Assembly (NCBI GenBank): GCA_902790215.1
Contig: CADAQX010000008.1
Coordinates: 1 to 64,000, forward strand
DNA: 64,000 nt
Direction: 5' to 3'
Source of the DNA: an uncultured Bacteroidota bacterium
GTDB lineage: Bacteria > Bacteroidota > Bacteroidia > Bacteroidales > P3
Numbering within the stretch: the stretch's first letter is position 1; each line of letters starts with the position of its first letter. The translations under genes and the position numbers were made by a program. Below are positions 1,845 through 17,747 of the stretch, in pieces. A model generated the notes under the pieces. The model worked only from the letters and a program-made list of their open reading frames with translations, was not told where the DNA came from and searched no databases.

Positions 1845-4800
1845 ATGTCATACGATTACAGCGAAGACCAATTGATACAGAAAAGTACTGCCGACTTCAT
1901 GGAGAAGGAGTTGGGGTGGACGAGCATATATGCTTACGACAAAGAGACGCTTGGTCCTGACGGTACCCTCGGTCGCAACAGTTACCACGAGGTGTTGCTG
2001 CAACGCCATTTCCGCAAGGTGTTGAAGACGCTGAATCCATGGCTGACGGACAAGCAGTTGCAGGAGGCTGTGGAGCGTATGACGGAATACATGAGCAGCC
2101 AGACGCTGATGCAGATTAATGAGCAGAAGTATCAGTACATCAAAGATGGTGTGCCTGTGACTCGCGTAAAACCGAGCGGAGAGACGGAAGAGGTGAAGGC
2201 CAAGGTCATCGACTTTGCTTCGCCCGACAAGAACGAGTTCCTCTGTGTGCGAGAGCTGTGGGTGCATGGGGCTTTGTATCGCCGTAGGGCCGACATCGTG
2301 GGCTTCGTGAACGGTCTGCCACTGCTCTTTATGGAACTGAAAAACCACGATGTGGAGGTACGGAGTGCTTTTGACGACAACTACCGCGACTACCTCGACA
2401 CCATTCCTCAGCTGTTCCGGTTCAATGCCTTTATCATGTTCAGCAATGGCTTGGAAGCCCGTGTGGGAACAATAGACTCGAAGTGGGAATTTTTCCATGA
2501 GTGGAAACGCCTGAACGAGATGGAGGCTGGCAACATAGAGCTGCCCACCATGTTGAAGGGTATATGCAAAAAGGAGAACTTCCTTGACCTGCTGGAGAAC
2601 TTCATCCTCTACGACCACAGCGGAGGCTCCACCGTGAAGATACTGGCACGCAACCACCAATTTTTGGGGGTGAACCAGGCGGTGGAGATGTACCGCAACC
2701 GCAAATTACATAACGGCAAGCTGGGTGTGTTTTGGCACACGCAAGGTAGCGGCAAGAGCTACTCAATGCTGTTTCTGGCGCAGAAGATACGGCGCAAATT
2801 CGAGGGCTCACCCACCATTTTAGTATTGACCGACCGCGATGAACTGAACAAGCAGATAAGCGACACTTTTGAGAACTGCGGATTGTTGGGTAATGTGAAA
2901 GCCAAGAAGTTCATTGCCAGCAGTGGCGAGGACTTGAAAACAAAACTGAGGGGCAACCCTTCGTTTATCTTCTCGCTGATACAGAAATTCAACGACCCCC
3001 AAGCAGAGCCCATCTATCCCGACCACGACATCATTGTGATGAGCGACGAGGCACACCGCACGCAGAACGGCATTTTCGCCGACAACCTTATGCATCTGCT
3101 GCCGACTGCCAACCGCATAGGCTTTACCGGAACGCCCCTGCTGAAGAACGACAATATCACAGCCCGCACTTTCGGCGGATATGTGAGTATATATGATTTC
3201 AAGCGGGCAGTAGAGGACAAAGCCACCGTACCGCTCTTTTATGAGAATAGGGGAGAACGGCTGCAAGAACTGAAGAACCCCGAAATCAACGAGGAGATAG
3301 CTGCGGCATTGGAACAAGCGGGAGATATGGATGCCTCGCAACTGGCAAAACTGGAGCGCGAGTTTGCCAAAGAGGTACATCTGCTCACTGCCAAAAAGCG
3401 TCTGCGCATCGTGGCACAGGATTTCGTGCGCCACTACAGCGACTTATGGACTTCGGGCAAGGCGATGTTTGTATGCTACAACAAGGTGACGTGCGTACAG
3501 ATGTACAACTACGCACAGGAATACTGGCAGCAAGAGATAAAACACCTGCAAGAGGTCATCGATAAGTGTGATTCACAACAGGAAGTACAGGAAATGCGCC
3601 GCAAACTGGCTTGGATGCAGGAAACGGAAATGGCAGTAGTGGTGTCGCAGGAGCAGAACGAGATACAGACTTTCCAGAAATGGGGACTCGACATACTGCC
3701 CCATCGTGAGAAGATGGAGAAACGCGAGCTGGACAAAGAGTTTAAAGACCCCGACTCAAAGCTCAGAGTGGTGTTTGTCTGCGCCATGTGGCTGACAGGC
3801 TTTGACGTGAAAACGCTTTCGTGCCTTTATATAGACAAGCCCATGAAGGCACACACGCTGATGCAGACTATTGCCCGTGCCAACCGTGTGGCAGAAGGCA
3901 AAACCAACGGACTAGTGATTGACTATATCGGTATCGTCAAAGCATTGCGTCAGGCATTGGCAGACTATACTGCTAATCCGGAAGGACAAGGAGGCAATGA
4001 CCCAACGATAAACAAAGAGGAACTCATCAAACATATCTTAGAAGCCATTGCTGCCGCTAAGTCATTCTTGAAAGAACATGAGATTGCACTGGACAGTTTA
4101 ATTCAGGCTAAAGATGGTTTTGTTAGACTCGCGTTGTTAAAAGAGGCCGCCAACGCTATGTGCGAGACGTTGGAGATAAGAAAAACCTATTGTACCTTTG
4201 CCACTACGTTGATGAATCTATGGAAATATCTCGACCGAGAGGACATCACACATGAAATGAAACAGCAGAAGGATGCCATAGAAGCCATCTACAAAGAATT
4301 GCAGAAGAAGCGAAAGCATGCGGATATCACCGACCTGAGTGTGGCTATCAGTGAAATAATAAACGAGCACATCGAAATGGAGGAAGTTGAAATAGCTGAC
4401 ATCGACCCGTACAGGCGTTTTGACATCAGCGGCATCAACTTTGAATTGTTACGCCGTGAGTTTGCCCGATGTCGTGAAAAGAATCTGCTGATGAAAGACA
4501 TTCAAGAGTTGCTTCAAGAAAGGATAGCCAAGATGCTTGCTGCCAATCCTTCGCGCATTAACTTCTACGAGAAATACCAGCAAATCATTTCGGACTACAA
4601 CAACGAACAGGACAGAGTGACAATAGAAAAGACATTTGAGGAGTTGATGAAGTTGTCGCATGATTTAGAAGACGAGGAAAAACGATATATACGAGAGGGG
4701 TTTGAAAACGACGAACAATTGTCGCTATTCGATGTTCTGATAAAAGATAACCTATCGAAGGATGAGATTAGGAAGTTGAAGAAAGTGGCGAAAGACCTTT

Positions 4801-12347: not shown

Positions 12348-13649
12348 ATGAGTTGGAAACCAAATAATCACGGCAAATGGAAGAGTCCCACGGGTGCCTG
12401 GGAGGCTGAGGGAATGCCCAAGAAACGCCCTACGCCCCAGGAACGCAACACCTTCAGTACCGAGGTTGTGCCGGAGAAGGCGATACTGGTGAGCGTGTGT
12501 GCCAACGGCACTACGATGGAACGCACACAGGAGTGTCTCAACGAGCTTGCCTTTCTGCTCGACACCGCAGGGGGCATACCCGTGAAGCAGGTGATTCAGA
12601 AACTGGAGCGTCCTGACACACGAACCTATGTGGGCAGCGGCAAGTTGGAGGAAATCAAAGAGTACAAGAACGCATTGGATGCCGATTTCCTGGTGTTCGA
12701 CGACGAGCTGTCGCCCGCCCAGCTGCGCAATCTCGAGCGGGAATTCGGGTGCCGCATCTTGGACCGCACCACCTTGATACTGGATATCTTTGCCAAGCGT
12801 GCCCGCACCAGCATTGCCAAGACACAGGTGGAGCTGGCGCAGTTGCAGTACATGCTGCCACGACTGACCCGCATGTGGACGCACCTCGAGCGCCAGCGCG
12901 GCGGTATCGGTATGCGTGGACCGGGCGAGACACAGATTGAGACAGACCGTCGACTGATTACCGAGAAGATAGCCCTGCTGAAAGAGAAACTGCGCGACAT
13001 AGACAAGCAGAAGGTGCAGCAACGCAAGAACCGCGAAAGCCTGGTGCGTGTGGCACTGGTGGGATACACCAATGTGGGCAAGTCGACACTGATGAACTTG
13101 CTAAGCAAGAGCGATGTCTTTGCTGAAAACAAGCTTTTTGCCACCCTCGACACAACCGTGCGCAAGGTGGTGCTTGGCAATCTGCCTTTTTTGTTGACCG
13201 ACACGGTGGGCTTTATTCGCAAGCTGCCTCATGGGTTGGTGGAGTCGTTCAAGTCGACGTTGGATGAGGTGTGCGAGGCTGACTTGCTGATGCACGTGGT
13301 GGATATTTCCCATCCCGACTACGAGGAGCAGATTAACGCCGTGAACCGCACACTGGAGGAAATCGGAGCCAACAATAAGCCTACTATCCTTGTGTTCAAC
13401 AAGATTGATGCCTATACCTATGTTGAGAAAGAAGAGGACGACCTGACGCCCATGACCAAGGCCAACTGGACGCTGGAGATGCTGCAAGACAGCTGGATGG
13501 CTCGGCAGTCGGAAAAGAACGACACCCTGCACACTCTCTTCATCAGTGCCGCCAACCGCGAGAATATCGACGCCCTGCGTGATGTGATGTACGAGGAAGT
13601 GAAGAAAATCCACGCGGTGAGGTACCCTTACAACAACTTCTTGTACTGA
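12348..13649 (+). CDS. hflX: Ribosome-associated GTPase HflX
   Basis: GTPase that binds the 50S subunit and splits stalled ribosomes in species where it has been tested. The 433 residues show the HflX N-terminal domain (RTYVGSGKLEEI), a Gly-rich joint (RGGIGMRGPGETQIE) and the G domain with G1 VGYTNVGKST near residue 240, G3 DTVGF and G4 NKID. The last 22 residues (VMYEEVKKIHAVRYPYNNFLY) matter here, because the DNA encoding them is found again at 15913-15981 and as a stub near 14572. The lipoprotein array starts 31 bases downstream with no terminator in between, so readthrough from hflX may express it. Confidence 0.95.
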   Translation: MSWKPNNHGKWKSPTGAWEAEGMPKKRPTPQERNTFSTEVVPEKAILVSVCANGTTMERTQECLNELAFLLDTAGGIPVKQVIQKLERPDTRTYVGSGKLEEIKEYKNALDADFLVFDDELSPAQLRNLEREFGCRILDRTTLILDIFAKRARTSIAKTQVELAQLQYMLPRLTRMWTHLERQRGGIGMRGPGETQIETDRRLITEKIALLKEKLRDIDKQKVQQRKNRESLVRVALVGYTNVGKSTLMNLLSKSDVFAENKLFATLDTTVRKVVLGNLPFLLTDTVGFIRKLPHGLVESFKSTLDEVCEADLLMHVVDISHPDYEEQINAVNRTLEEIGANNKPTILVFNKIDAYTYVEKEEDDLTPMTKANWTLEMLQDSWMARQSEKNDTLHTLFISAANRENIDALRDVMYEEVKKIHAVRYPYNNFLY

Positions 13650-13680: not shown

Positions 13681-14532
13681 ATGAAGAGGTTAAGTAAATT
13701 AATGATGGCCTGTTTTATGGCTGCCGTTATGATGATGACAGTGGGGTGTCAGAAAGAAGATATTGCTCCTATTATCCCTGATTCTCCTATTGTCCCTGAT
13801 GGAGTGTTGCCTGGCCTGTTCTCGGTGAGTGCAACGCGACAAGTTCGTTTCTCGCAGGGCAACCTGCAGTACCAAGCAAGCACCAATACTTGGCGGTTTG
13901 CCGAGCACCAGTATGACTATGTAGGGAGTGATAACCGTAGTATCAGCTCTACCTATAGTGGTTGGATAGACCTCTTTGGTTGGGGCACGGGCAGCAATCC
14001 AACCCTATCCTCATCATATCCAGAGGACTATGGCACCTTCGTTGACTGGGGTAGCAACGCCATCATCAACGGCGGAAATACCACCAACCTATGGCGTACA
14101 CTCACTAGTGCCGAATGGGAGTACCTGCTAAATACCCGCCCCGGTGCCTCATCCAAACTTGGTTCTGGCAACATTAACGGTGTGGGCGGGCTGATTATAC
14201 TTCCCGACAGTTGGACACTGCCTTCGGAGTGTTCGTTCGCTTCAGGATTCGCCATTATTAATCCTTACCACTATCCTGACTGGAAACACAACAGCTACAC
14301 TCTCGCACAGTGGGCGCAGATGGAGGCAGCTGGTGCAGTCTTCCTGCCTGCGGCGGGCCGGCGCAAAGGCACGGATTTCGACAATGTGGGCTTCCACGGC
14401 TACTATTGGTCGTCCACGCCCTACAGTAAGAACGACGCGTACCACATGTACTTCAGCAGCTACAATCTCATCGCGTCGATCAACTGCAGTCGCAGCTACG
14501 GGTACCCTATACGCCCCGTTCAGGATAATTAA
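13681..14532 (+). CDS. Variable lipoprotein 1 (DGR-type target, C-type-lectin-like C-terminus)
   Basis: A 283-residue lipoprotein with signal peptide and lipobox MTVGC (Cys about 23). A Pro-rich spacer holds two IIPDSP-type units, followed by a conserved domain starting LPGLFSVS and containing LFGWGTGSNPT. The C-terminus (PAAGRRKGT to YPIRPVQDN) contains the YYWSSTP core and ends in RPV, like formylglycine-generating-enzyme/C-type-lectin folds used by DGR targets and by Fibrobacter-type paralogous domains. Compared with the paralogues at 14997 and 16013, the body is nearly identical while the last 162 nt differ at many codons, mostly only at codon bases 1 and 2. This is probably a surface-exposed ligand-binding protein. 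Its binding partner is unknown. Confidence 0.85.
   Translation: MKRLSKLMMACFMAAVMMMTVGCQKEDIAPIIPDSPIVPDGVLPGLFSVSATRQVRFSQGNLQYQASTNTWRFAEHQYDYVGSDNRSISSTYSGWIDLFGWGTGSNPTLSSSYPEDYGTFVDWGSNAIINGGNTTNLWRTLTSAEWEYLLNTRPGASSKLGSGNINGVGGLIILPDSWTLPSECSFASGFAIINPYHYPDWKHNSYTLAQWAQMEAAGAVFLPAAGRRKGTDFDNVGFHGYYWSSTPYSKNDAYHMYFSSYNLIASINCSRSYGYPIRPVQDN
14359..14520 (+). other. DGR-like variable region 1 (54 codons)
   Basis: Aligned without gaps to 15705-15866 and 16745-16906, each 162 nt. Of 54 codons, 33 differ among the three copies and 27 of those 33 keep the same third base in all copies. Invariant codons are those without AA, such as the core TATTGGTCGTCCACGCCC and GCG, CGC and GGG. Variable codons are mostly NNC, as expected if a template had AAC there and its adenines were mutated. 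Confidence 0.85.
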
Positions 14533-14553
14533 TTTATTAAAACGTTAAACCTT

Positions 14554-14593
14554 GTTGCGGGCAGCGGAGACCATACAATAACTTCTTGTACTG
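14554..14593 (+). other. Half hairpin fused to an hflX tail stub
   Basis: GTTGCGGGCAG (14554-14564) is the left arm of the hairpin seen intact after the third copy. Here it is followed by CGGAGA, the reverse complement of that hairpin's loop TCTCCG. The sequence then jumps to ATACAATAACTTCTTGTACTGA, the last codons of hflX. This marks a duplication junction inside the hairpin. Confidence 0.7.
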
Positions 14594-14624
14594 AAAAGAT
14601 TATTAATTCAAAAATGGTATTAAT

Positions 14625-14708
14625 ATGAAGAGATTAAGTAAATCCATGGTGGTCTGTTTTATGGCTGCCGTAATGGTGATGTCAGTAGGTTGTGATAAGG
14701 AAAAATGA
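14625..14708 (+). pseudogene. Truncated lipoprotein leader of the array
   Basis: ATG to TGA encodes 27 residues: a signal peptide and lipobox nearly identical to the other array members (MKRLSKSMVVCF to VGCDKEK), then a stop. The upstream leader TTATTAATTCAAAAATGG is also shared. It is a fourth array copy that lost its body. A tiny secreted lipopeptide is conceivable but unlikely. Confidence 0.8.
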
Positions 14709-14996
14709 CGAATAAGGAACGGATATGAATTGAATATCAATGGGCGTTACATGGCCAACAATGGGGTGTGACAGGCAGCCGTGTGTTAAAAAAATATAAA
14801 TATTGGGGTGCCGGGGTATCCAAAACGGGCTTTCCGACTCTATATAGAAAAGCAGTGTTTTTTGCTGCGCTGTCCAGTGGCAGAGGTGGGTGACAGAGGA
14901 GTGTGGGACGGAAATGATGAAGAGTGGGGGAGTTGCGGGCGGCAGTGGGAAAGACTGTATTTAATAAAAATATCAAGATTTAAAAATAGTATAAAT
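14709..14996. other. Unassigned spacer within the lipoprotein array
   Basis: This 288-bp stretch has no gene I can defend. It is more GC-rich and G-biased than the leaders around it and contains scraps such as NINGRYMANNGV in one frame, interrupted by stops. It may be the decayed body of the truncated copy at 14625 or unrelated inserted DNA. A 20-bp leader before 14997 resembles those of the other copies. Confidence 0.4.
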
Positions 14997-15875
14997 ATGA
15001 AGAGATTAAGTAAATCCATGGTGGTCTGTTTTATGGCAGCCGTTATGATGATGACAGTGGGGTGTCAGAAAAAAGATATTGCTCCTATTATCCCTGAGGG
15101 ATGCTTGCCAGGCCTGTTTTCGGTGAGTGAAACGCAGCAAGTGTATTTCTCGCGGGGCAATCTACAGTACCAAGCAAGCACCAATACCTGGCGTTTTGCT
15201 GAACACCAGTATGACTATGTAGGTACACAAACAGCCGACGGTAATGGATATTACGGAGGTAATGTCAGCGGAAGTGATAACCGCAATATCAGCTCCACCT
15301 ATAGTGGTTGGATAGACCTCTTTGGTTGGGGCACGGGCAGCAATCCAACACTATCCTCCCAAAACAATGAGGACTATGGCACCTTCGTGGACTGGGGCTG
15401 CAACCCCATCAGCAACGGAGGAAATACTGCCAACCGATGGCGCACTCTCACCCAAGCCGAATGGGAGTACCTGCTTAACGAACGTCCCAATGCCTCATCC
15501 AAATTTGCTATCGGCAACATTAACGGTGTGGGCGGGCTGATTTTACTTCCCGACAGTTGGACACTGCCTTCGGAGTGTTCGTTCACTTCAGGATACGCCA
15601 CTTATGATGGATACATCGATATTGACTGGACACATAACAGCTACACTCTCGCACAGTGGGCGCAGATGGAGGCAGCTGGTGCAGTATTCCTGCCTGCGGC
15701 GGGCGACCGCTACGGCACGAATGTCTACGATGTGGGCCTCGGCGTCTACTATTGGTCGTCCACGCCCGTCAATAAGCTCAGCGCGTACATCATGAACTTA
15801 GTCAGCAGCGGTCTCAGCGCGACGAACTGCAACAGTCGCACTGTCGGGTACTCTGTACGCCTCGTTCAGTATTAA
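14997..15875 (+). CDS. Variable lipoprotein 2 (DGR-type target)
   Basis: A 292-residue paralogue of the gene at 13681. The start at 14997 is chosen because it restores the shared signal peptide (MKRLSKSMVVCFMAAV) and lipobox MTVGC; the frame stays open upstream but carries no such signal. The Pro-rich spacer is short, with only one PIIPE unit. The middle carries an extra TADGNGYYGGN segment absent from copy 1. The C-terminus runs PAAGDRYGT to SVRLVQY around YYWSSTP. The variable codons retain several AAC/AAT triplets (for example in MNLVSS and TNCNSR), as expected of template-like positions. A small hairpin follows the stop at 15879-15893. Function is inferred as surface display of a diversified lectin-like domain. 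Confidence 0.85.
   Translation: MKRLSKSMVVCFMAAVMMMTVGCQKKDIAPIIPEGCLPGLFSVSETQQVYFSRGNLQYQASTNTWRFAEHQYDYVGTQTADGNGYYGGNVSGSDNRNISSTYSGWIDLFGWGTGSNPTLSSQNNEDYGTFVDWGCNPISNGGNTANRWRTLTQAEWEYLLNERPNASSKFAIGNINGVGGLILLPDSWTLPSECSFTSGYATYDGYIDIDWTHNSYTLAQWAQMEAAGAVFLPAAGDRYGTNVYDVGLGVYYWSSTPVNKLSAYIMNLVSSGLSATNCNSRTVGYSVRLVQY
15705..15866 (+). other. DGR-like variable region 2 (54 codons)
   Basis: Against region 3, most differing codons keep the third base (for example GAC/TAC, CTC/CGC, GGC/TAC, GTC/GGC, AGC/ATC). The exceptions are codons 9, 24, 32 and 46 of the block. The 70 bp before the block are almost identical in all three copies, including silent positions, so the change is local to this block. 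Confidence 0.85.
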
Positions 15876-15912
15876 GAGTGAGCCAGTGGCTCATTTGATA
15901 GTGAAGCTGAAG

Positions 15913-15981
15913 AATGTGATGTGCGAAGAGATGAAGAAAATCCACGCGGTGAGGTATCCTTACAATAACTTCCTGTACTGA
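15913..15981 (+). pseudogene. Duplicated 3' fragment of hflX
   Basis: Reading in phase gives NVMCEEMKKIHAVRYPYNNFLY and a stop, matching the last 22 residues of HflX (12348-13649) with three changes, and with several silent base differences. It is followed by the same leader (CTGAAAAAGATTATTAATTC) that follows the true hflX stop. The unit that was duplicated therefore ran from inside hflX through a lipoprotein gene. Confidence 0.9.
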
Positions 15982-16012
15982 AAAAGATTATTAATTCAAA
16001 AATGGTATTAAT

Positions 16013-16918
16013 ATGAAGAGATTAAGTAAATCCATGGTGGTCTGTTTTATGGCAGCCGTTATGATAATGACAGTGGGGTGTCAGAAAGAAGATATTGCTC
16101 CTATTATCCCTGATTCTCCTATTATTCCTGATACTCCTATTATTCCTGATGGAGCGTTGCCAGGCCTGTTTTCGGTGAGTGCAACGCAACAGGTATATTT
16201 CTCGCAGGGCAACCTGCAGTACCAGGCAAGCACCAATACTTGGCGATTTGCTGAACACCAGTATGACTATGTAGGTAAACAAACAGGATATTACAGAGGT
16301 AATGTCAGCGGAAGTGATAACCGCTATATCAGCTCCACCTATAGTGGTTGGATAGACCTCTTTGGTTGGGGCACGGGCAGCAATCCAACCCTATCCTCCA
16401 CCAGCTTTGAGGACTATGGTGCCTTCGTGGACTGGGGCTGCAACCCTATCAGCAACGGAGGAAATACCAACAACCTATGGCGCACTTTGACAAAATCTGA
16501 GTGGTACTATCTTTTCAACAGTCGCACCGACGCCTCATCTAAATGTGGTACTGGCAACATTAACGGTGTGGGCGGGCTGATTATACTTCCCGACAGTTGG
16601 AAACTGCCTTCGGAGTGTTCGTTCACTTCAGGATTCTGCTCTCCCAGTGGAGACAGCTATCCTGACTGGTCACACAACAGCTACACTCTCGCACAGTGGG
16701 CGCAGATGGAGGCAGCTGGTGCAGTATTCCTGCCTGCGGCGGGCTACCGCTACGGCACGAATGTCTACCACGTGGGCCGCTACGGCTTCTATTGGTCGTC
16801 CACGCCCCTCAATGATGGCGACGCGTACAGCATGAGCTTCGTCAGCTACGGTCTCATCGCGATGGACAGCAACTATCGCGGCTTCGGGCTCTCTGTACGC
16901 CCCGTTCTGGATAATTAA
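16013..16918 (+). CDS. Variable lipoprotein 3 (DGR-type target)
   Basis: The longest array member, 301 residues. Signal peptide and lipobox MTVGC are as in copies 1 and 2. The spacer carries three tandem 18-bp units (PIIPDS, PIIPDT, PIIPDG) against two in copy 1 and one in copy 2, so the distance between membrane anchor and binding domain varies. The conserved body shares ISSTYSGWIDLFGWGTG with its sisters. The C-terminus runs PAAGYRYGT to LSVRPVLDN around FYWSSTP. An 11-bp-stem hairpin follows at 16940. It lies behind the hflX tail fragment at 15913, so it arose with that duplication. The role in binding is inferred; no ligand can be named. Confidence 0.85.
   Translation: MKRLSKSMVVCFMAAVMIMTVGCQKEDIAPIIPDSPIIPDTPIIPDGALPGLFSVSATQQVYFSQGNLQYQASTNTWRFAEHQYDYVGKQTGYYRGNVSGSDNRYISSTYSGWIDLFGWGTGSNPTLSSTSFEDYGAFVDWGCNPISNGGNTNNLWRTLTKSEWYYLFNSRTDASSKCGTGNINGVGGLIILPDSWKLPSECSFTSGFCSPSGDSYPDWSHNSYTLAQWAQMEAAGAVFLPAAGYRYGTNVYHVGRYGFYWSSTPLNDGDAYSMSFVSYGLIAMDSNYRGFGLSVRPVLDN
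16745..16906 (+). other. DGR-like variable region 3 (54 codons)
   Basis: Same limits as regions 1 and 2. Region 3 uses bases other than A at many sites that would be A in a template (CTC, GGC, TTC, CGC codons), so it would be a much-edited copy. The codon frame, block length and invariant core are unchanged. Confidence 0.85.
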
Positions 16919-16939
16919 TTTATTAAAACGTTAAACCTT

Positions 16940-16967
16940 GTTGCGGGCAGTCTCCGCTGCCCGCAAC
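16940..16967 (+). terminator. 11-bp stem hairpin after variable lipoprotein 3
   Basis: Arms GTTGCGGGCAG (16940-16950) and CTGCCCGCAAC (16957-16967) pair perfectly around the loop TCTCCG, followed by AAATAAAAAAAG. It could be a terminator. It also resembles the GC-rich hairpin that lies just beyond the variable region of some DGRs (described for the Bordetella phage BPP-1 system). The trailing A-run rather than T-run is not ideal for intrinsic termination on this strand. Confidence 0.65.
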
Positions 16968-17009
16968 AAATAAAAAAAGAGCACTTGTAGTATAACAATT
17001 TCTAAAATT

Positions 17010-17747
17010 ATGAAGAAAAGAAATGCGATTATGTTGGTCTCCATTCTGTTCTTCTTTACGATCATTGTAACAAGTTGTCAAAAGGAGGTTGAGCAGATAG
17101 AGGGAGCATTGCCCGGTTTGTTCTCAGTAAGTGACAATCAAAAGGTACGCTTCTCGCAGGGCAATCTGCAGTATCAAGTCAGCACTAATACTTGGCGTTT
17201 TGCTGAAAAACAGTATTTGTATGGCGACTTGTTTGGTTGGGGAACGGGAAACAATCCCAGCCTGTCATCAACAAACGACCTTGATTATGCCACCTTTACC
17301 GATTGGGGCAATAACCCCATCGTCAATGGAGGCAATGCTCCCAACATGTGGCGAACATTAACTCAGGCAGAGTGGGTTTATCTCCTCAATCGCCCAGGCA
17401 AATCTGGTATGGGTATTGTAGGTGGATATACTGGATGGATTATCTTACCCGACAATTGGCTACAGCCATCCGGGTGTCCTGATTTCGTGCCGGGAAATCA
17501 AGAGTACAATGAATATTCCCTTTCAGAGTGGATGGTGATGGAGTTGGCGGGTGCGGTATTCCTCCCTGAAGCGAAATACAATGCTGAACCTCATACCGCT
17601 ATGAGAGGGCCCTATGGAGAATACTGGGCGTCCACCCCCGACGGTGAGTACAAAGCCTATCGTCTATATCTATATGGCTACAATGTGCCGGTTACGTGGG
17701 CCAGTTGTGTTCGCCACAATAAATGTTCTGTACGACTTGTTCACTAA
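17010..17747 (+). CDS. Divergent paralogue of the variable lipoproteins
   Basis: A 245-residue lipoprotein with signal MKKRNAIMLVSILFFF and lipobox VTSCQ. The body aligns with copies 1-3 (LPGLFSVS, FSQGNLQYQ, LFGWGTGNNP, GGNAPNMWRTLTQAEW) and the C-terminus keeps EYWASTP and ends SVRLVH. Unlike copies 1-3, the DNA differs throughout, third positions included, and the terminal codons do not show the NNC pattern. It is therefore an older family member and probably not a current diversification target. It lacks the Pro-rich spacer units. No promoter box of the TAnnTTTG type was found before it. Confidence 0.8.
   Translation: MKKRNAIMLVSILFFFTIIVTSCQKEVEQIEGALPGLFSVSDNQKVRFSQGNLQYQVSTNTWRFAEKQYLYGDLFGWGTGNNPSLSSTNDLDYATFTDWGNNPIVNGGNAPNMWRTLTQAEWVYLLNRPGKSGMGIVGGYTGWIILPDNWLQPSGCPDFVPGNQEYNEYSLSEWMVMELAGAVFLPEAKYNAEPHTAMRGPYGEYWASTPDGEYKAYRLYLYGYNVPVTWASCVRHNKCSVRLVH

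Follow-up and report, generated by a model that had tools for sequence, protein, structure and literature searches.

The 64,000-nucleotide stretch analysed here, referred to as the window (contig CADAQX010000008.1 of assembly GCA_902790215.1, an uncultured Bacteroidota bacterium; contig C8 of draft genome G000 in our numbering), contains a tandem array of lipoprotein genes, A, B and C, carrying variable regions (VRs) of the kind produced by diversity-generating retroelements (DGRs). This had been proposed in a reading made from the sequence alone, and it is strongly supported by the match of the variable positions to the adenines of a template repeat (TR), the homogenisation of silent sites, the pattern in a set of 13 related VRs and the controls. 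With moderate confidence, the three VRs are interpreted as DGR targets that were rewritten recently and in trans from a cross-species template, probably by a mobile or unbinned element. Large DGR surveys begin at the reverse transcriptase (RT); here, the targets alone reveal the system.

Variation within the three regions

Gene A (13681..14532, plus strand, 283 amino acids (aa), with a Cys after TVG seen by eye), gene B (14997..15875, plus strand, 292 aa from the ATG at 14997, with an alternative GTG start at 14808 in the open reading frame list) and gene C (16013..16918, plus strand, 301 aa) scored 33.5, 24.3 and 22.7 bits against TIGR02145, and the more distant gene D scored 21.6 bits, at a cut-off of 41.65. 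PF09603 matched gene A only, with 17.5 bits at a cut-off of 33.9. Since these scores lie under the curated cut-offs, the proteins are labelled FISUMP-like.

In all three genes, the VR lies at the 3' end (A, 14359..14520; B, 15705..15866; C, 16745..16906; plus strand, 162 nt each). Re-alignment confirmed that the VRs align without gaps at the positions given in the sequence-only reading, and its counts were reproduced exactly: 33 of 54 codons are variable, the third base is constant in 27 of these 33, and the 21 invariant codons are all free of AA doublets. The variable columns are distributed 27/24/6 over the three codon positions, which departs from equal thirds (p=0.001), and positions 1 and 2 changed together in 32 of the 79 differing codon pairs. 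Ordinary divergence was said to give the opposite pattern, and this holds in the upstream parts of the same genes, where third positions change most (24/24/38, 25/22/43 and 25/20/32 mismatches in the three gene pairs). These pairs show 28, 28 and 21 synonymous differences in 220, 226 and 232 upstream codons, compared with none in the VR part, where 30, 28 and 25 codons differ non-synonymously. The further claim of a flank that is almost identical, silent sites included, is correct for the 69 nt just upstream of the VRs, with one variable column, but not further out, where 9 variable columns were counted in 90 nt and 24 in 120 nt, in line with the synonymous differences given above. Downstream of the VRs, likeness is found only between copies 1 and 3.

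A comparison with DGRs of the same genus links this variation to template adenines. Of 59 genomes in the genus, 24 gave an RVT_1 match, and the motif [ILVM]GxxxSQ, a mark of DGR RTs, occurs in 14 of 30 RT loci examined. A repeat scan for mismatches on A of one copy detected a TR/VR pair in 12 of these 14 regions; the regions of G003:C149 and G029 gave no pair. As the scan selects adenine mismatches, only the presence of the pairs beside an RT, and not their purity, counts as an independent result. At G063:C50 (L093), a DGR-type RT, an adjoining TR and a FISUMP-like target occur together, and this TR aligns without gaps, codon for codon, to the VRs of the window. Of the 57 variable columns, 36 coincide with its adenines, compared with 14 of the 105 invariant ones (p=1e-10), so that the expectation of mismatches on template adenines was borne out with the TR of a relative; shifting the TR by 1 to 5 codons either way gave only 19 to 27 coincidences. 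When codon positions are taken separately, the association persists at position 1 (p=0.001) and position 2 (p=2e-5) and fails at position 3 (p=1), where the template has three adenines.

For a broader comparison, 44 VR or TR sequences were read from fetched regions of relatives. A set of 13 VRs of 60 codons was chosen from these by genome, covering nine genomes (three VRs from G000, two each from G084 and G119, one each from six others). Ten VRs of the same type were left out for lengths other than 60 codons (two each from G027, G028 and G119, one each from G061, G082, G089 and G100), and a 60-codon VR of G017, a more distant match, is also outside the set. The backbone is common to the 13 VRs nearly letter for letter. 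Diversity is 0.515 at the columns with an adenine in the G063 TR and 0.097 elsewhere (0/10000 shuffles within codon positions), and the ten VRs from outside the window give 0.506 and 0.089 on their own. The 42 hypervariable columns are distributed 25/17/0 over the codon positions; A is present in 42/42, and 35/42 are A in the G063 TR. The base counts at these columns (A238 T142 G129 C37) follow the same order as in the 12 TR/VR pairs (A157 T57 G55 C24). Variation is thus limited to template adenines, as seen indirectly through the TR of a relative and the 13 VRs. Change in the VR is rapid: gene C and its counterpart in G006 differ by 18/14/27 mismatches by codon position in 228 flank codons, compared with 20/18/2 in 60 VR codons.

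Silent sites and controls across genomes

Silent differences at same-residue codons were counted between gene B and one hand-picked gene from each of 11 other genomes, pairs that are non-independent since gene B is in all of them. They amounted to 344/1435 upstream and 23/354 in the VR (p=2e-15), and were lower in the VR for 11/11 genomes. Over all between-genome pairs, VRs of other lengths included, silent differences were 29% upstream and 10% in the VR, and within genomes they were 26% and 5%. The VRs are therefore nearly identical at non-adenine sites, silent ones included, both between copies and between genomes.

Two controls evolve differently. Gene D (17010..17747, plus strand) is a related lipoprotein gene within the array whose VR equivalent evolves ordinarily: compared with its orthologue in G119, mismatches by codon position are 8/8/17 in 188 codons and 4/1/8 in the 57 codons of the VR equivalent. 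A conserved paralogue present in G000:C1, G021, G027, G084 and G119 shows silent differences of 7-20% in the flank and 11-19% in the VR equivalent (ten pairs), and its diversity is 0.052 at TR-adenine columns and 0.072 elsewhere (671/10000 shuffles). Based on the codon-position pattern and these two controls, ordinary divergence of the VRs is rejected. Since silent sites are homogenised in the VRs and ordinary in their neighbours, A to C and the related VRs appear to have been overwritten from a near-common backbone after the genomes diverged, and the neighbours not. The paralogue in G000 is a minus-strand FISUMP-like gene (L006, G000:C1:70000-85000) with a nearly fixed VR equivalent. In a second fixed FISUMP-like paralogue, a C-terminal stretch of 61 residues is identical between L105 (G006:C140) and L244 (G119:C55).

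Search for the driver and competing explanations

The visible assembly of G000 comprises 2.98 Mb in 40 contigs and is 96.85% complete. The check proposed with the sequence-only reading came out against a resident DGR: in this assembly, an RVT_1 profile search gave no match, nor did the RT of G063 as a query at E<=10, so that no DGR-type RT is seen there. With all candidates scored, the inferred template had no matches at E<=0.01 other than the three VRs and the paralogue on C1, and no template equal to the VRs except at adenines was detected. Exact copies of its 18-base core are confined to the VRs; places at 2-3 mismatches numbered 14 and were read in part. Across the 12 genomes with this VR type and G021, again with all candidates scored, no matching template was found, weak partial matches being read in part, and the best match, at 87%, is a VR of G089. 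RVT_1 gave no match in nine of the 12. Among the remaining three, the RT of G068 lacks the DGR motif and is of another type, while G030 and G089 have a DGR-type RT with another template; the RT of G021 has the motif QGAPTSP. The DGRs of G030 and G089 were rejected as drivers because their templates encode other targets, the G089 template having been picked by eye among AAC-rich stretches, as a scan of part of this region gave no TR/VR pair.

The sensitivity of the query was assessed on a larger scale. Over the genus, the inferred template matched 40 of 120 genomes (with at most 7 candidates scored per genome), and order-wide it matched 7 further genomes among 393 (2 candidates scored each). 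Five of these 7 contain Asn-rich copies that resemble templates in composition (L258, L259, L261, L263, L264, L266), and for L258 the call is also backed by an adenine-limited pair. Since such distant templates are picked up, the query reaches far below the likeness expected of a cognate template. Templates of this domain were found at examined loci of G003, G024, G063, G070 and G094, and in G135, and DGR-type RTs adjoin them; the RT of G063 matches those of the other five at 47-58% identity. In these DGRs, including that of G063:C50, a TR beside a DGR-type RT goes with a target domain homologous to that of the window. The TR of G063 was rejected as the direct driver of the window VRs on account of its many silent differences in the codon table.

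In IMG/VR, a search with the inferred-template protein gave one match, on the same contig as the first sequence pattern, where a DGR-like pair, unrelated and with a FISUMP-like target, was recognised by eye. The second pattern gave no match, and the four matches of the third were judged to be due to chance. On the IMG/VR contig L257 (IMGVR_UViG_3300035327_000500), TR- and VR-like stretches (about 1740-1890 and 3540-3717) and a 510-aa FISUMP-like protein were noted by eye, with an integrase-like open reading frame nearby and a backbone unrelated to the window VRs.

In the proposed mechanism, template RNA would be reverse-transcribed with its adenines, mostly in AAC and AAT codons, randomised, and the copy would overwrite each VR by retrohoming. 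This would erase silent differences between copies and spread amino-acid changes over the C-terminal FISUMP-like domain. Templates of nearly the same backbone would have been used to rewrite genes A to C, as well as genes of eight or more further genomes in the genus, later than the divergence of the genomes. As template and RT are outside the visible chromosomes, the most likely arrangement is a driver acting in trans, carried by an element that moves horizontally or is unbinned for some other reason. A more specific form is proposed tentatively: a mobile DGR, its RT and template borne by a phage, a plasmid or a conjugative element that is missed by binning, would pass from species to species of the genus, and a single shared template would serve to rewrite the chromosomal lipoprotein genes already present in each host.

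Two explanations assume a DGR that belongs to the chromosome. A resident DGR may once have existed in the lineage and lost its RT and template, recently, leaving the VRs as frozen relics of past diversification. This is consistent with the missing RVT_1 matches in most genomes of this VR type, with the lack of a matching template in all 12, and with the VR length differences and two weakly homogenised genes, which resemble ageing. It is nevertheless unlikely, because silent sites are nearly the same across genomes in most VRs and not in the flanks: an old loss would give species-level silent divergence, as in the control paralogue, and recent loss would have to have happened many times independently. 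An ordinary resident DGR with remote targets, its driver being in unassembled, contaminant-filtered or otherwise hidden sequence, is quite unlikely as well. The drafts are incomplete (71-99% for the 11 other genomes), all five fetched regions of the conserved paralogue contain unsearchable runs of N (2.1-9.5 kb), and remote targets served in trans are described for Thiohalocapsa PB-PSB1 in the portion of PMC10907252 used here. However, the driver would have been missed in 12/12 genomes, three of them 98-99% complete, and a vertically inherited template should differ at silent sites between species more than the VRs do. Neither explanation fits well, since a resident DGR should leave a template in some of the 12 genomes and a long-lost one should lead to the silent divergence of species.

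A scenario with no retroelement at all would combine diversifying selection and gene conversion, or have species exchange VR cassettes. Recombination at the locus is indicated by tandem duplicates and by some flanks that are unusually alike between genomes, such as gene C and the first copy of G027:C26 with 4 silent differences in 151 codons. Even so, this is highly improbable: change is confined to A-containing columns, the first two bases of a codon are often replaced together, no hypervariable column is at codon position 3, and the TR of an independent DGR predicts the variable columns; cassette exchange would still require a DGR as its source. An unbinned driver that crosses species fits both the absence of a template and the silent likeness, and is therefore the preferred reading.

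Several observations weigh against this preferred reading. Homogenisation is weaker in G061 and G089:C2, with about 20% silent differences in the VR, and in a comparison with the second array copy of G027 (58 codons), the VR shows 8 third-position mismatches in 58 codons. VRs of this type in relatives span 55 to 64 codons, and as plain retrohoming preserves length, several templates or later indels are required. An inverted repeat downstream of gene C (16938..16969, plus strand, 13-bp arms and a 6-nt loop, found by eye), which could be a terminator, is present by half behind A and absent behind B, with similar repeats behind many VRs of relatives. No carrier of the driver was found in viral, phage and plasmid collections. 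Confidence is therefore moderate, since the mobile reading rests on absence and no driver was seen.

DGRs of the Bordetella phage BPP-1 and of a Legionella lipoprotein also direct adenine-limited change to the C-terminus of a surface-type protein, and differ from the window in being complete cassettes. DGRs with Fib_succ_major (FISUMP) or DUF1566 targets are described from the human microbiome in the sections of Ye 2014 (PMC4159848) considered here, which also expect targets on contigs without an RT. The array resembles these systems in target domain family, lipoprotein context and adenine-limited VR; unlike them, it has no RT or template in the visible genome, three targets in tandem and a near-common backbone across species. 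The Thiohalocapsa PB-PSB1 DGRs (PMC10907252, in the same portion) likewise have targets away from RT and TR, some without a matching template in the genome, although there the same population of one species yielded intact variants, whereas here the backbone crosses species and no driver was found. Roux et al. 2021 (PMC8144416) state, in the part relied on here, that their own survey would miss remote targets. No report of cross-species DGR targets without a driver was found among titles and the beginnings of abstracts, a search with subscription papers and preprints mostly outside it.

Judging by the silent sites, what was very nearly a single template was used in several species. Should a mobile mutator indeed be responsible, infection could confer or remove the diversification of surface proteins, and the target arrays would remain as durable marks of the mutator that can be searched for. 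The combination of silent homogenisation and adenine-limited variability provides an RT-free test that is applicable to any genome set.

The gene array and its surroundings

The array proteins may be displayed at the cell surface and act as ligand-binding receptors. An AlphaFold2 model of the gene C product, built with 35 sequences, has a mean predicted local distance difference test score (pLDDT) of 79. Foldseek against the PDB gave 17 matches at E<=10 and none at E<=0.001; the top match, 4eps, is insignificant (E=2.4), and the comparison thus gave no significant support for a C-type-lectin-like fold. In the part of Ye 2014 (PMC4159848) consulted, 4eps is superimposed on the variable protein TvpA. 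A profile search against solved structures gave one unrelated match (E=0.78).

Other DGRs in the genus (L085, L086, L095, L096) have different targets, including frames of about 2270-2290 aa. Some of these targets carry the motif SVxWEDAxEF...GNVWEWCxDWYG, which we take to resemble the FGE-sulfatase family. Directly 3' of the stop region of the target gene at L103 (G030:C144), a unit of about 60-70 nt is repeated in tandem, as seen by eye.

The array lies 3' of a gene at 12348..13649 (plus strand) that is presumably hflX-like. It is followed by A, B and C together with the remnant of another copy, of which only the leader peptide is left (14625..14708, plus strand, by eye), and by gene D. In six relatives (G021, G027, G028, G082, G100 and G119), array genes likewise lie downstream of the hflX orthologue. 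Among the best 80 of 155 loci, the records of related genes are mostly from uncultured Bacteroidales or Paludibacteraceae, many from rumen or other ruminant samples. A search of the window with Rfam at the gathering threshold and a tRNA scan gave no match. Before gene C, positions 15930-15980 were recognised by eye as repeating the 3' end of the hflX-like gene (13600-13649), probably a trace of the tandem duplication.

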